42,072 nucleotides of DNA, taken from IMG/VR virus record IMGVR_UViG_3300012039_000017, positions 1 through 42,072 of that record. One strand, given 5' to 3'. This document shows, in pieces, positions 2,502 to 39,522 of the stretch (position 1 is the stretch's first letter; every line of letters begins with the position of its first letter). The notes beneath the pieces were generated by a model. That model had not been told where the DNA came from. It saw only the letters and a program-made list of their open reading frames with translations, and did not search any database. The DNA is from a virus. Both the position numbers and the translations under genes were made by a program.

Positions 2502-3026
2502 CTAACTTAGGTGAGAGCCGCCGACAATCTCAGTACCTTTAAAATTACAAGCTTCATTTTCTTCAAACTCATCTCGAATTTCCAATTCACGAGCTAGAGC
2601 AGCTAGAGCAGCCCATCGTGCGACTGGAAAACCATAAGTATTTCTGCCGTTCAAGTTATACATTATTGTCGAATAAGTTGGATTTTTAAATGTGTGCACA
2701 CCTCTATAAAGAGTGCTATTCGTTTTGTGATAATTTTTCCTGTGGAGTGCGTTAAATTTTCTGCTTACTATTCGAAGATTTTGTTTTCTATTATCCAATG
2801 TATTGTGATTTATATGGTCAATCTGTATTCCTGTGTTTCTTTTAGGAGTCGTTTTAATTAGTAAGACCAAGTGGTGCATAAATACTCTCGCAGCAGAACA
2901 GTAAGCGTACTGGTTCTTTAAATTGCCAATTAGATTCCAGTGTAAACTAGAAAGCCATTCAAAATCGTTATCGTCAACTAAAGCAAATTGTGTTGTTGTT
3001 TTATATTTAATAAGAAGTTGTTTCAT
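2502..3026 (-). CDS. HNH homing endonuclease with AP2-like DNA-binding region, 174 aa
   Basis: An N-terminal 'FALVDDNDFEWLSSLHWNL' region and HHLVLL motif lead into QIDHINHNTLDNRKQNLRIV at about residues 68-87, the HNH core. YRGVHTF and a degenerate AP2-like repeat (ARWAALAALARELEIRDEFEENEACNF) follow. This domain order is that of free-standing HNH homing endonucleases of phages. The gene is visibly more AT-rich than its neighbours, a sign of separate acquisition. It is preceded by its own promoter and by an attenuator-like terminator that ends 15 bases before the ATG. No Shine-Dalgarno site is visible. Confidence 0.85.
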   Translation of the reverse strand: MKQLLIKYKTTTQFALVDDNDFEWLSSLHWNLIGNLKNQYAYCSAARVFMHHLVLLIKTTPKRNTGIQIDHINHNTLDNRKQNLRIVSRKFNALHRKNYHKTNSTLYRGVHTFKNPTYSTIMYNLNGRNTYGFPVARWAALAALARELEIRDEFEENEACNFKGTEIVGGSHLS

Positions 3027-3041
3027 TGAAAGAAATAAAAA

Positions 3042-3096
3042 ACCGCTTTACGAGTGGGGCGAACTTGGGGTTCGAAAACCCCGCTCATAAAACGGT
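3042..3096 (-). terminator. Intrinsic terminator/attenuator in the HNH leader
   Basis: On the leftward strand, arms ACCG...GAGCGGGG and CCCCACTC...CGGT form an approximately 18-bp imperfect stem followed by TTTTTTATTT, then the HNH start codon. The loop contains CGAAC/GTTCG and the sequence ACCCCAAGTT. An upstream leader segment, AACTTGGGGT (reverse complement of 3102-3111), is complementary over 10 bases to that loop, so an alternative pairing could disturb the terminator. Confidence 0.55.
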
Positions 3097-3160
3097 ATTT
3101 CACCCCAAGTTTGGCAATAAACTTTATCTTCAGGCTAGCTACTGTGCTTATTGCTTTGTA

Positions 3161-3189
3161 ATTATTACAAGTAATTAAATAGTCGTCAA
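3161..3189 (-). promoter_or_regulatory. Sigma-70-type promoter for the HNH leader
   Basis: Leftward TTGACG (3184-3189), 17-base spacer, AATAAT (3161-3166). Predicted start near 3154, giving a leader of about 128 bases that begins with GCAATAA/TTATTGC arms (3148-3154 and 3114-3120). Confidence 0.5.
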
Positions 3190-3196
3190 GTCTACC

Positions 3197-3205
3197 TGTG
3201 GATAA
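3197..3205 (-). promoter_or_regulatory. DnaA-box sequence in the intergenic region
   Basis: TGTGGATAA is the exact reverse complement of TTATCCACA. It lies between the divergent HNH and ssDNA-binding-protein genes, inside ACCTGT/ACAGGT arms (about 3194-3219) that precede a T-rich stretch. Confidence 0.35.
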
Positions 3206-9627: not shown

Positions 9628-9656
9628 TTGCTAGGATTTATATAAGCCTATATAAT
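9628..9656 (+). promoter_or_regulatory. Sigma-70-type promoter for the winged-helix gene
   Basis: TTGCTA (9628-9633), exact 17-base spacer, TATAAT (9651-9656). Predicted transcription start near 9663 gives an approximately 80-base structured leader. Confidence 0.65.
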
Positions 9657-9673
9657 TGAATTACTTATTAGTA

Positions 9674-9740
9674 ACCGGGAGTTATTAAAGCCTCTATGTT
9701 CCTCCCGGTGCATAGGGGTTTTAATAACAAACACTGGGAG
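9674..9740 (+). promoter_or_regulatory. Structured leader that can sequester the ribosome-binding site
   Basis: A 17-bp helix with two G-U pairs joins 9682-9698 and 9711-9727; its loop holds CTCCCGGTG (9702-9710). The loop can pair with ACCGGGAG just upstream (9674-9681, 8 bp) or with CACTGGGAG (9732-9740, 9 bp, one G-U), which contains the gene's Shine-Dalgarno GGGAG. The two GGGAGTTAT copies thus compete for one anti-Shine-Dalgarno loop, implying a translational switch or pseudoknot. Confidence 0.55.
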
Positions 9741-9744
9741 TTAT

Positions 9745-10167
9745 ATGGGTAGGTTTTGGATGGATGATGATTTCATCCGGGTTAAGGCTAGGCATTTATC
9801 ATTAAAAGCAATTGTGGTGTTTATGGCTCTAAGTAGCCACGCTAATGGTAAGGGAAGTACTTTTATCGGTCATCGTAAATTAGGAGAGGAATTAGGTCTA
9901 AATAAGGATTCTGTTACACGGGCAATGAGGGAATTGGAAGCGTCCGATTTGGTCAGACGGTTAAGGGGTAAAAATGGTCTACCGTCCGAAACTGTCGTGC
10001 CAACCGTCCGAAACGACACTCTTAGACCGTCCGATTCTGTCAGACATAAGGAAGTAATTAAGGAAGATATTAAGGAACAGAATTTAATAGGTAAGATGAT
10101 GAGAGGTTCAACTAAAGGTCGAGTATCGTTGGCGAAGGAAGCGCTTCGCGCAAAGTGGTCAGTGTAA
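9745..10167 (+). CDS. Winged-helix DNA-binding protein, 140 aa
   Basis: RHLSLKAIVVFMALSSHAN...FIGHRKLGEELGLNKDSVTRAMRELEASDLVRRLRG (residues 17-73) is a winged-helix domain like those of replication initiators and phage regulators. The rest is a charged linker and basic tail. GGGAG lies five bases before the ATG. It is the only sizeable rightward gene inside a long leftward stretch, with its own strong promoter and a structured leader, so it is a plausible master regulator or replication initiator. Which of the two cannot be decided from sequence. Confidence 0.7.
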   Translation: MGRFWMDDDFIRVKARHLSLKAIVVFMALSSHANGKGSTFIGHRKLGEELGLNKDSVTRAMRELEASDLVRRLRGKNGLPSETVVPTVRNDTLRPSDSVRHKEVIKEDIKEQNLIGKMMRGSTKGRVSLAKEALRAKWSV

Positions 10168-11770: not shown

Positions 11771-13239
11771 TAGAGAATATTTAGCGGATCTGAATCCTGC
11801 GACTGCTGCAAAGAACTGCTCGGTGTTATGCCGCTGGCATTGTTAATAGTATTGATGCGTAACGTTTCAATAAACTCTTTTAGGGTTTTAAGTTTCGATT
11901 GAATCACCAGTGGGCTGTCATTAATTCCAGGCGTGTACGTGTTGAGCAACTTCTCTTCGTTCGGAGTAAAACTCGTACCACCCCGAAGTTTCGCAATGGT
12001 ACCTTTTATTGTTCCAATTAGATTTCGAAGTTCCTCTCCCTCAGGGGTACCTTTTCCAAAATTCTTTGCCAGGAATTGATTTACCGTGCCTTGGCCAAAT
12101 CCGCCAACGCCACTGAACTGAGTCTGCTGCCCTATAGAGAGAATCTTGTCCGCTAAGTCATTTACTGTATCCATTGTGGTAATAAGCTCTTGCTGCGCGG
12201 CCGGAAGTTTTACTGGTGTGGGCGTTCCTGCTGTGCCGAGAGTTCCACTGCCGGTGCTTCCTCCTCCTCCTCCGCCACCGACTTCACTAGCAAAGACGGT
12301 GCGGAATTGTGATTCTCTAAAACCCGGCACAATCTTCGCTTCGCCAGTTTGTTTATTAAAAAGTAACGGCGTGCCGTCAGGCGTAACTGTTAAAGAAAAG
12401 TCTGGTGGTACTTCAACATTCACTTCTACTCGTTTTGGTTCTCCGGTCGTTGGGTCAATGCCCCAGAACATACCCTTTCCATCTGACAGTTTTTCAAATT
12501 TCCAGTCCACTTGCTGTTGTTTCGGTTTCATCGAGTCATAAATCAATTCACCTAACCCTTCATCGCCGTAAGCATTTCTAAGCAGGAAACTCTTTCTGGC
12601 TGGGTCAATCTTGCTCAAATCCACATTACTCTTAGCCAAATTGCCTAACATACCCTTCGATTGTTCTTGAGCCTTGGTTAAATATTCTGTGTAAGCCTCG
12701 CTATGACCCAAAGCTTCGGCTTTTCTGGCAGTTATTTCTTCCCGGGCGGTCTTATCAATATTGCTGTAAACGGCCGCAACCTTCACTGCCTGTTCGTCCT
12801 GTATTGCTTTTCTGGCTACCTCATTCTTTCCTTTTTGTTCCAAATCGCGGGACGTGGCAAAGGTACTGCCTCCGAGTCCTGCATTCACATTTATAGCCCT
12901 TACTTTGTCCAAGCGTCCTGCGCCGGCCTCGTCTTCCCGCCTTAAGAGTTGCGCTGTCTCGGCGTTAATAGCGTCAATGTAGGTTTGGTTGTATTTCCTG
13001 ACATTCTCACGGATGGCGTTTTCATCAACACCCGTTCTTTGTTTACTGAACTCATCAAAGCCTAAAAGCCCGCCAGACGCAGGATTCTGCCCGCTGACAG
13101 GTGTTATCGGTGCGGGTTGGGGTTGTGGGGTGGGTAACGGGGGCTGCGTATAACGCCGAACAACCGTTCCACCCTGGCCTCGACTTTGGCCAGTGGGATC
13201 TACTTCTTCCTCCATGAATTTGTATATTTGTGGGGGCAT
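11770..13239 (-). CDS. Internal virion protein, 489 aa
   Basis: A Pro/Gln-rich N-terminus (PPLPTPQPQPAP) is followed by a long helix-rich region with 'LGGSTFATSRDLEQKGKNEVARKAIQDEQ' character (residues about 120-170), a beta-containing middle (WKFEKLSDGKGMFWGIDPTTGEP), a poly-Gly linker and a helical C-terminus. Similar proline-rich helical proteins precede ejection proteins in podoviruses. No catalytic motif. The start is preceded by GGTAATTAAC, containing the stop of the upstream gene, and no Shine-Dalgarno site. Confidence 0.5.
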   Translation of the reverse strand: MPPQIYKFMEEEVDPTGQSRGQGGTVVRRYTQPPLPTPQPQPAPITPVSGQNPASGGLLGFDEFSKQRTGVDENAIRENVRKYNQTYIDAINAETAQLLRREDEAGAGRLDKVRAINVNAGLGGSTFATSRDLEQKGKNEVARKAIQDEQAVKVAAVYSNIDKTAREEITARKAEALGHSEAYTEYLTKAQEQSKGMLGNLAKSNVDLSKIDPARKSFLLRNAYGDEGLGELIYDSMKPKQQQVDWKFEKLSDGKGMFWGIDPTTGEPKRVEVNVEVPPDFSLTVTPDGTPLLFNKQTGEAKIVPGFRESQFRTVFASEVGGGGGGGSTGSGTLGTAGTPTPVKLPAAQQELITTMDTVNDLADKILSIGQQTQFSGVGGFGQGTVNQFLAKNFGKGTPEGEELRNLIGTIKGTIAKLRGGTSFTPNEEKLLNTYTPGINDSPLVIQSKLKTLKEFIETLRINTINNASGITPSSSLQQSQDSDPLNIL

Positions 13240-13252
13240 AAAAATTAGTTTG

Positions 13253-14614
13253 TTAATTACCTATAAATTGCGCGTTAAACTGGGTAAATCCTCCTGATGC
13301 AGGGGTGCAAGTAGAGCCTTGGTTTGCGGTGTTGCTGTTTATACCTAAGAGGGCAACCGTGTGGGTAGCTGCGGTAACCTGGGGGCTAATATAGGTAAAG
13401 TTTAAAGGGTGTAAAGGCCCGTTCGCGCCCGATTCATTTTGCATATAAGCAAGTCCTGTGGTTGTTCCTGTGAAGTCAATAGACACTCTTACCTGACAAA
13501 TACCGCTGTTTGTGCCATTGCCTACACTTAATGTTCCGCTAATAAAAAGCCTTTGGGCACTGGTCGGAGCAACAGTTATGGTTGCAAGGGTGGTAGTGCC
13601 GTCACCCCAGTTTGCCGCAAGTAAAGTCGTAGTGGAGTTTCCGAAAATGCTTGGACTTCCCCAGCTTAGAGTTCCGCTTCCGTTATTAGTTAGAACGCCA
13701 CTGACTTGGGAAGGCGGGAAAACATAACTCATACCCCTAAGCACTAAGGGTGCAGAAGAAGTTGCTGCTAGAGTGGTTGTGGCTGTAAATGTCCAGGCCT
13801 CGGTCAAATCCAAAAATCCTTGCGAGAGTTTTCCGTTGGTTTTGGTTACCGGAATAATCGTGGTTGCAGAAGACGTGGCATTGAATAGGGAAGCAGCAGG
13901 TATGAGCGTGTACGCACCCGTCATTCCCGTCCCCGCAATTATCTGTGCTGTGGTCGCAATTTGAACAATACCCGGAGTCGTAGTTGTTGCTGTTGGCGCT
14001 CCCTGCAAGGCAATCCCGTTGACATAAGAAATATTTGCCAAATAGTTTGTGTTGCTCGAAAGCGTGGTTGTAGAAATCGAGCTGTCGTAGCGAATCGGAC
14101 TGGGCAGGGTTTCATCGCCGTTTAAAATCCGTCCGTGCAGGGCAACGTGCGGGTGGTCGGTAATCTTTATACTCGCGCCTCTGCGGTGGGTCTGTTTGAG
14201 AGAGGTAACGGAGCTGGTGCCGGTGACGGGAGAAATACCTCTTGTAAGGCTGGAAACAGCCGTACCCGAAGCCGTGCCGCACACATCCTCTGCAACAGAG
14301 GTTCCTTCATCAATCGTGAAACAGGTGAAACCGGAAAGGGAGTTGCCGGCCGTATCCGTTCCCGATACAAGCGTCATAGAAGTGGCGGAATCCGTAATAG
14401 AGGCTTGGAGGGAAGTCTCAAAACGGGCAACGGCAATGGGAATGGTCGCCCCCAAGGGTTGTTCAATTACCTGTATGGGATTCGTAATATTTTGAATTAC
14501 AGGTTCAACGGGAGCGGGGATATCACTTTTCATGGCAACACCAAAGAAACCGGCAATAGCTGCCACAGTGGAAATGATTGCTACACTTATTTTTGCAAAC
14601 AGGGAATCGAGCAT
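13253..14614 (-). CDS. Membrane-anchored virion surface protein, 453 aa
   Basis: Begins with a hydrophobic helix (SVAIISTVAAIAGFFGVAM, residues 10-28). It continues with a beta-rich region containing GFTCFTIDEGTSVAEDVCG and RRGASIKITDHPHVALHGRIL,  which I recognise from uncharacterised Patescibacteria and associated-phage proteins. TTTTPGIVQIATTAQ and Ser/Thr-rich strands follow; the C-terminal 120 residues form a compact all-beta domain with two Cys. Likely a tail or fibre component. The hydrophobic start is odd for a phage tail protein. No Shine-Dalgarno site; TAATAATTAA precedes the start. Confidence 0.6.
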   Translation of the reverse strand: MLDSLFAKISVAIISTVAAIAGFFGVAMKSDIPAPVEPVIQNITNPIQVIEQPLGATIPIAVARFETSLQASITDSATSMTLVSGTDTAGNSLSGFTCFTIDEGTSVAEDVCGTASGTAVSSLTRGISPVTGTSSVTSLKQTHRRGASIKITDHPHVALHGRILNGDETLPSPIRYDSSISTTTLSSNTNYLANISYVNGIALQGAPTATTTTPGIVQIATTAQIIAGTGMTGAYTLIPAASLFNATSSATTIIPVTKTNGKLSQGFLDLTEAWTFTATTTLAATSSAPLVLRGMSYVFPPSQVSGVLTNNGSGTLSWGSPSIFGNSTTTLLAANWGDGTTTLATITVAPTSAQRLFISGTLSVGNGTNSGICQVRVSIDFTGTTTGLAYMQNESGANGPLHPLNFTYISPQVTAATHTVALLGINSNTANQGSTCTPASGGFTQFNAQFIGN

Positions 14615-26552: not shown

Positions 26553-26569
26553 ACCGGCAGATTGCCGGT
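26553..26569 (-). terminator. Intrinsic terminator upstream of the scaffold gene
   Basis: Leftward, ACCGGCA-atc-TGCCGGT is followed by TTTTTGTTTT. It lies between the small head-region genes and the scaffold gene, so scaffold and coat either need their own promoter or depend on antitermination or read-through. Confidence 0.65.
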
Positions 26570-26579
26570 GTTGTATGAG

Positions 26580-26643
26580 CTGCTAAGGACGAGAATCACC
26601 AAGACCTTAGCAGTTTGTACAGTACCGCCAATGTTGGTGATTC
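26580..26643. other. Interleaved complementary arms: pseudoknot or two-state RNA
   Basis: Arms in the order CTGCTAAGG (26580-26588), GAATCACCAA (26593-26602), CCTTAGCAG (26605-26613), TTGGTGATTC (26634-26643). First pairs with third (9 bp) and second with fourth (10 bp), both perfectly. This A-B-A'-B' order defines an H-type pseudoknot or two mutually exclusive hairpins. On the leftward message it directly precedes the terminator, so it could modulate it; on the rightward strand the 4- and 20-base loops suit a classical pseudoknot. Confidence 0.6.
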
Positions 26644-26665
26644 TTTAAATTGTAGTTGAAAGGAA

Positions 26666-31180: not shown

Positions 31181-31393
31181 TTGACGCTTTCTGTAGATTT
31201 GTCAAAATAACTATGTGAGACGAAGAGAGGGCGAAAACTGGCGTTTGGCACTACTTCTAGCTGACGAACTTTAAGGAAGCTTTTAACAAGGAAGTAACCC
31301 CACCGTCTCACACAAATAACCATTCATGTTCTTGCCTCTTGATACTGCCTGAATGGTCGGTATCGAGGGGTTAGAACACAAGAAAGGCTCTAT
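31181..31393 (+). promoter_or_regulatory. Promoter-like site and long structured leader
   Basis: TTGACG (31181-31186) with a weak -10 17 bases later. The leader holds TGTGAGACG/CGTCTCACA (31214-31222 with 31304-31312, 9 bp) closing an approximately 80-base domain. Interleaved arms follow: CCATTCA/TGAATGG (31320-31326 with 31350-31356) and CCTCTTGATAC/GTATCGAGGGG (31335-31345 with 31360-31370, two G-U). TTCTTG (31329-31334) can also pair with CAAGAA (31379-31384) next to the ribosome site. This looks like a cis-regulatory or separate RNA. Confidence 0.45.
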
Positions 31394-35522: not shown

Positions 35523-35796
35523 CCAAAGTCATCATCCCGAACTTCTCAGACACACCCCTCCGTAAGGAGGGGCTCACCTAAGTGCGGTACTAAAACTCAC
35601 TGATGCAGTCATAAGCCGTAAGGCTTACCCCTCGGATTAGGAGAGAGCATTTAGCGACATGCAGGGGCGTCCCACTGGAGTTGAGCCTGGGGAAACAGCC
35701 GGTATGGTAATAATCAAAAACCCACCTGCGAACGACGAAGTTGCACAGATGGATTATTATCGTCGTTCTTTAAGCAGTTACTTGAATTATAACGGG
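35523..35796. other. Candidate origin or nic region beside the relaxation gene
   Basis: A 274-base gene-free stretch directly after the replication-relaxation gene. It contains CCCCTCC-GTAA-GGAGGGG (35555-35572), TAAGCC-GTAA-GGCTTA (35612-35627), both capped by the same GTAA tetraloop, and AACGACGA/TCGTCGTT arms (35731-35738 with 35760-35767). Perfect hairpins beside a relaxation-type gene are what plasmid origins or oriT sites look like; function is inference. They could equally be part of the message leader of the 35522 gene. Confidence 0.35.
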
Positions 35797-39442: not shown

Positions 39443-39522
39443 TGGAGTAGAATCAGTCGAGCCGAGGGTTTAGTTTCCTCATGCGTGTGAAGCATGCGCT
39501 CTTCCAACTGAGCTATGATCCC
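39443..39522 (-). other. tRNA-Val(CAC) 5' half, probable phage attachment site
   Basis: Leftward from 39522: GGGATCA acceptor strand, TA, D-arm GCTCAGTTGGAAGAGC, G, anticodon arm CATGC-TTCACAC-GCATG (anticodon CAC), AGG. All positions are canonical to about nucleotide 46. After that no normal T-arm exists, although TGATTCT (39449-39455) could pair with the acceptor. A truncated tRNA next to a tyrosine integrase gene is the usual mark of attP; a tRNA with an aberrant T-arm is the alternative. Confidence 0.6.

Follow-up and report, generated by a model that had tools for sequence, protein, structure and literature searches.

The leader of a putative replication initiator gene in a 42,072-base IMG/VR virus record (IMGVR_UViG_3300012039_000017; this whole stretch is called the window) may act as a promoter-proximal RNA switch. 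Two interlocked and mutually exclusive hairpins would control the gene by attenuation and probably also by gating its translation. We give this reading a roughly even chance of being right. The presence of an RNA switch in the leader as such is well supported by the recurrence of the layout, the bias of G-U pairs towards the sense strand, and the linkage to promoters. The phage infects a bacterium and encodes homologues of terminase, major head protein, primase and integrase.

Segments of the leader and their complementarity

The initial annotation had described a strong promoter, an 80-base leader and a 17-bp helix, the loop of which is complementary to both an upstream segment and the ribosome site of the gene. 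All of these elements were recovered (Table 1). The promoter gives rise to a leader of ~82 nt; a match of 10/12 within 75 nt upstream is found at 1.0% of random window positions. Segments B and B' form 17 pairs including two G-U pairs, while A and A' are perfectly complementary over 8 Watson-Crick pairs. The loop (9702-9710, CTCCCGGTG) can form 9 pairs with A'', one of them G-U. When the loop was kept and its flanks were shuffled, a match this good occurred upstream in 0.7% and downstream in 0.45% of the trials. RNA folding, proposed earlier as a check, was run computationally, and the 118-nt region folded 4.75 standard deviations better than its shuffles (z-score -4.75).

The two loop targets are imperfect direct repeats, as had been noticed before, with exact copies of GGGAGTTAT at 9677 and 9736. 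This repeat runs on (TTAT) past the part that pairs with the loop, a caution that comes from the sequence only. In the best fold, the ribosome site is paired with the 5' end of the RNA; this pairing was dropped, since 19.5% of the shuffled flanks do as well. Imperfect direct repeats (~80-85% identical) also link the promoter spacer and -10 region (9631-9653), the A-B arm (9676-9698) and the ribosome site (9734-9746), and are possibly operators or the remains of an old duplication.

Table 1. Features of the leader, the downstream gene and the sister elements (window coordinates unless a contig is named)
Feature	Position	Strand	Remarks
Sigma-70-type promoter TTGCTA-N17-TATAAT	9628-9656	+	10/12 match; predicted start near A9663
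Segment A, ACCGGGAG	9674-9681	+	Abuts 5' foot of stem; exact loop complement
Segment B	9682-9698	+	5' arm of long hairpin
Leader ORF, MFLPVHRGFNNKHWELYG followed by stop	9696-9752	+	Predicted; starts at hairpin apex, stop overlaps gene start
Segment A', CTCCCGGT	9702-9709	+	Loop segment
Segment B'	9711-9727	+	3' arm; GGGG then TTTTAATAA; weak U-tract at 9719-9722
Segment A'', CACTGGGAG	9732-9740	+	Ribosome site of the gene; second loop complement
O-like/DnaD-like replication initiator homologue, 140 aa	9745-10167	+	HTH_36 (2.1e-6); PHROG replication families
Four in-gene iterons CGTCCGAWW, putative origin	9941-10045 (at 9941, 9983, 10005, 10028)	+	Pattern count
AT-rich stretch (72%), putative unwinding element	10046-10105	+	Follows the iterons
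Sister element E2	31319-31378	+	A 8, B 21-22 pairs; 16 nt before ORF 31394
Sister element E3	35709-35768	-	TTGACG-17-TATAAT promoter, T-run; GIY-YIG-like gene 193 nt downstream
Sister element E4	3032-3111	-	TTGACG promoter, DnaA-box motif, TTTTTT; 6 nt before HNH endonuclease gene 2502-3026
Hairpin E5	26561-26646	.	27 pairs, loop matches 11 nt of flank; possible member only
DnaA-box motif TTATCCACA	3189-3205; L031 4560; L042 8314 and 7514; L004 121; L034 15140	-	

Predicted competition between an early and a late hairpin

The order of the segments is A-B-A'-B', with almost no linkers. Because of this interlocked order, A:A' and B:B' cannot both form fully. A full H-type pseudoknot was judged unlikely on geometry and set aside, with zero linker to the 17-bp stem. 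Forced pairing of the loop with the Shine-Dalgarno (SD) sequence was ~11 kcal/mol worse than the best fold, and forced pairing with the upstream segment (A:A') ~16 kcal/mol worse. Given this cost and the stem of 17-18 bp between the loop and its targets, a choice of the loop between the two targets in cis is not supported; as long as the stem persists, neither target is within its reach in cis. The earlier idea of a translational switch operated by such a choice is thus supported only in part: in positing an RNA switch for the leader, but not in its mechanism. Instead, in the folding model an early A:A' hairpin competes with a later B:B' hairpin.

When the growing RNA was folded, A:A' was the minimum-energy structure once A' was complete and remained so to a length of 55; from a length of 56 onwards it was B:B'. 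This crossover is the exact point where GGGG ends and TTTT begins. In all eight copies of the layout examined, A:A' had the lowest energy in the nascent RNA as long as the GC block of B' was incomplete, and in seven of them a T-run follows directly. The strength of this run differs: E3, E4, E8 and E9 have a strong run, the window leader a weak one and E2 none, and the last two observations count against the reading given at the outset. A simple terminator scan, which accepts loops of at most 8 nt only, found no terminator. The AUG of the leader ORF was unpaired to 61-74% in the nascent RNA versus 0-1% at full length in three of five elements (E1, E4, E7). The AUGs of the other two, E2 and E6, showed the opposite or no effect, which also counts against this reading. 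So does the two-dimensional model, which without a helper settles in the repressive fold at equilibrium.

We propose the following sequence of events. In the nascent RNA, A would pair with A' first and hold B in its loop; the RNA would then be open and antiterminator-like, its leader AUG accessible. As B' emerges, the longer B:B' hairpin would become the more stable fold, and the T-run directly after the crossover, in the window leader and in most copies, means that it could act as an attenuator. Where transcription has already passed this point, B:B' would hide the leader AUG and lower translation. In this way the dose of the initiator would be kept low or made conditional. The balance could be tipped in trans, if the loop of the short RNA binds segment A, and here also the ribosome site, of the next transcript. 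Sequence or computation shows the complementarity, the exclusivity in two-dimensional folding, the recurrence, the promoter linkage, the G-U bias of the sense strand and the position of the crossover; we infer termination, a role for leader ORF translation, and a factor tipping the balance.

Each of the five elements that have a neighbouring gene contains the start of a short ORF, the end of which coincides with the gene start or lies no more than 9 nt from it. The probability of this arrangement in shuffles was 0.08-0.25 for each, and of the 42 other ATG-started ORFs in the window with at least 100 aa, 7 likewise have an upstream ORF that overlaps them. The pattern is therefore suggestive only. 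No gene lies close by E3, E8 and E9.

Recurrence of the layout in the window and in related phages

We searched for the layout by topology alone, not by sequence, in the window and in related phages collected via their terminase. Hairpins of at least 15 bp with a loop complementary to the flank numbered 5 in the 42-kb window versus 0.06 expected from shuffles (none of 100 shuffles held more than 1). Unrelated viral contigs (1.11 Mb), a control set that came from the first iteron-pattern scan, held 9 hairpins of this class. A strict module, defined by a promoter of at least 10/12, an abutting A of at least 8 and a B of at least 12, was found 5 times in 456 kb of the phage group and not once in the 1.11 Mb of unrelated contigs.

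Further copies are present in the related contigs L026, L042 (two) and L031. Promoters of at least 10/12, usually of the TTGAC type, lie just upstream of three of the four copies in the window and of those in these contigs. In L026, the terminase of which is 56% identical, the topology precedes a distant O-like gene (HTH_36 9e-7) with four in-gene repeats of its own: a promoter TTGACA-16-TAAAAT is followed by A-B-A'-B'. Its gap of 17 nt between A and B counts against the proposed reading. The copies are non-homologous, and each has its own letters in A and A', with the complementarity kept. Common to the copies is the upstream target, whereas the SD target is seen in the window leader only. 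Leaving out E5, the sense fold was more stable than the antisense fold in 10 of 10 elements, with ~34 G-U pairs on the sense versus 6 on the antisense strand. Both features favour the transcribed strand and thus RNA rather than DNA. The more stable strand of E5 is opposite to the neighbouring genes; an antisense RNA is one possible reading of this hairpin, a bidirectional element another. Two further candidates were set aside, E10 (L039), which lies within an open reading frame, and E11 (L005), which has no promoter. It counts against the proposed reading that the members were partly found by seeking the layout.

Since the layout recurs with wholly different letters before other genes of this phage and its relatives, it has the look of a built-in on/off switch that can be reused. 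We tentatively suggest, as a possibility that falls somewhat short of even, that this phage lineage uses a portable, sequence-free module (promoter plus A-B-A'-B') before replication, endonuclease and accessory genes, each copy with a private A/A' code, so that the copies would form orthogonal self-regulated or immunity-like switches. If such a module works, one phage lineage would control several genes, the replication initiator included, by an RNA topology that is kept without sequence. A design of this kind would escape covariance-model libraries. In its logic it would also be a compact relative of immunity RNAs of the P4/C4 kind, and orthogonal synthetic switches could readily be drawn from it.

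The DnaA-box motif TTATCCACA is enriched in the phage group, with 26 occurrences in 506 kb (some contigs overlapping) versus 4 in 1.11 Mb of unrelated contigs. In about seven cases it lies 13-19 nt upstream of a TTGAC-type -35 element, suggesting DnaA-linked promoters. At 39448-39522 (-), the window holds a tRNA according to Rfam (36 bits) but not to ARAGORN.

Comparison with known systems and alternative explanations

In attenuators of the trp type and of the pT181 and pIP501 rep genes, a hairpin formed early between promoter and gene keeps a terminator-like one from forming, and replication initiator genes are among their targets. The window leader likewise places exclusive early and later hairpins between promoter and gene. 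Usual antiterminators have a strand in common with the terminator, whereas the window helices have no common strand and exclude each other by topology only. In the RepZ leader of the IncI plasmid ColIb-P9, as in the window, the loop has a second site as its complement and the replication initiator is coupled to a leader ORF, and there a pseudoknot forms and activates; the zero linker to the 17-bp stem makes a full pseudoknot unlikely in the window leader. The leader hairpins on HNH and GIY-YIG genes (E3, E4) resemble the ribosome-site hairpins of T4-type homing endonuclease genes (PMC2988022), but the latter are simple sequestering structures without a loop/flank partner.

The logic of one loop and two targets is also that of the immunity RNAs of phage P4 (CI, with seqA, seqB and seqC) and of P1/P7 (C4). 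The CI RNA of P4 pairs with seqA and seqC (PMC4825925). In both cases the loop is complementary to a site upstream and to one over the ribosome site and is co-transcribed with its target; a leader ORF before the gene is a further common feature, and in P4 the RNA controls replication genes of a temperate element. We used P4 as positive control for the Rfam models C4 (RF01695) and isrK (RF01394), which it matched at 6e-14 and 1e-11, respectively. Its loop TCCTGTGAA is complementary to the upstream TTCACAGG and also to TTCACAGGA, a segment overlapping the ribosome site AGGAGG; one loop with a pair of targets of this kind is also what the window leader has. The window leader, in contrast, gave no match to C4 at gathering or up to E=10, and none to isrK. 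Moreover, it has everything within ~70 nt, in one hairpin and with no separate processed RNA, and most copies in the lineage have the upstream target only. Since neither model matches and the SD target is unique to the window copy, the logic is similar, but we do not assign the leader to this family. IsrK of prophage Gifsy-1 is comparable in that one promoter gives a short RNA ending at a terminator and a read-through mRNA, on which a leader ORF is coupled to the gene (PMC4825925). It differs in structure and in activating in trans.

These parallels raise the possibility that the leader encodes its own antisense RNA of the immunity type, as P4 CI and P1 C4 do. A short RNA ending after B' would act in trans, its loop A' binding A (like seqA) and A'' (like seqC) of new transcripts, resulting in termination and a block of translation of the replication gene. 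The P4 control has the same pair of targets, and the window places upstream target, loop and SD target on the replication gene of an integrase-bearing phage; moreover, P4 CI acts on an upstream and a downstream target, and IsrK, which is short and ends by termination, acts on its own read-through mRNA (PMC4825925). We still regard this explanation as unlikely, as the C4 and isrK models do not match, the other copies lack the SD target, and action in trans does not require A to adjoin the foot of the stem.

A purely translational kinetic switch appears quite unlikely as well. Here, nascent A:A' would free the start of the leader ORF for coupled translation and B:B' would later silence the mRNA, with no termination. 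The position of the leader ORF end in 5/5 elements with an adjacent gene and the flip in AUG exposure in E1, E4 and E7 agree with such a switch, and functional metastable mRNA hairpins are known (PMC6733600). However, it leaves the T-runs right after the GC stem in 7/8 elements unexplained, the AUG effect is reversed or missing in two elements, and E3, E8 and E9 have no gene nearby. We consider it very improbable that a repressor binds the repeats GGA[GT]TTAT at the -10 region, A and the ribosome site as DNA operators, with the hairpin as a by-product. The imperfect repeats between 9631-9643 and 9734-9746 and between 9634-9653 and 9678-9697, together with the two copies of GGGAGTTAT, would suit a repressor, but G-U pairs on the transcribed strand are not needed for DNA binding, and no sequence is common to the sister elements.

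The downstream gene

The gene behind the leader had been taken for a lone regulator gene. This view was not borne out: the protein is replication-initiator-like, with a winged-helix HTH_36 domain, matches to PHROG replication families (DnaD-like loader and O-like/replication-initiation families, 3.9e-7 to 0.009) and iterons within its gene. The four iterons compare with 0.45 in synonymous-codon shuffles, and 0 of 5000 shuffles reached four. In lambda, the replication origin lies within the O gene itself, and the window gene resembles it in having in-gene iterons followed by AT-rich DNA, in addition to the winged-helix domain of O-like phage families. The 140-aa protein did not reach the cut-off of Pfam Phage_rep_O (E=0.19; 12.7 bits versus 28.7).

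Homologues of the gene or the leader were not found in viral contigs, GTDB genomes or INPHARED phages. A plasmid search for homologues of the gene gave weak matches to HTH regulators only (best E 7e-3), and scans with the iteron pattern retrieved no relatives carrying the leader. The nearest terminases in named genomes are at most 42% identical. A single-sequence AlphaFold model of the protein (pLDDT 46) was too poor for use.

In the relative G007, the slot of the O-like gene is occupied by an unrelated signal-peptide-like gene, also a lone plus-strand gene (L031, 11411-12064 (+)). The syntenic slot thus holds different lone genes, which makes the O-like gene unit moron-like. An unrelated GC-rich phage contig (L109) carries at 12915-14261 (-) a wHTH gene with in-gene repeats that share the CCGTCCGAATC core of the window iterons.
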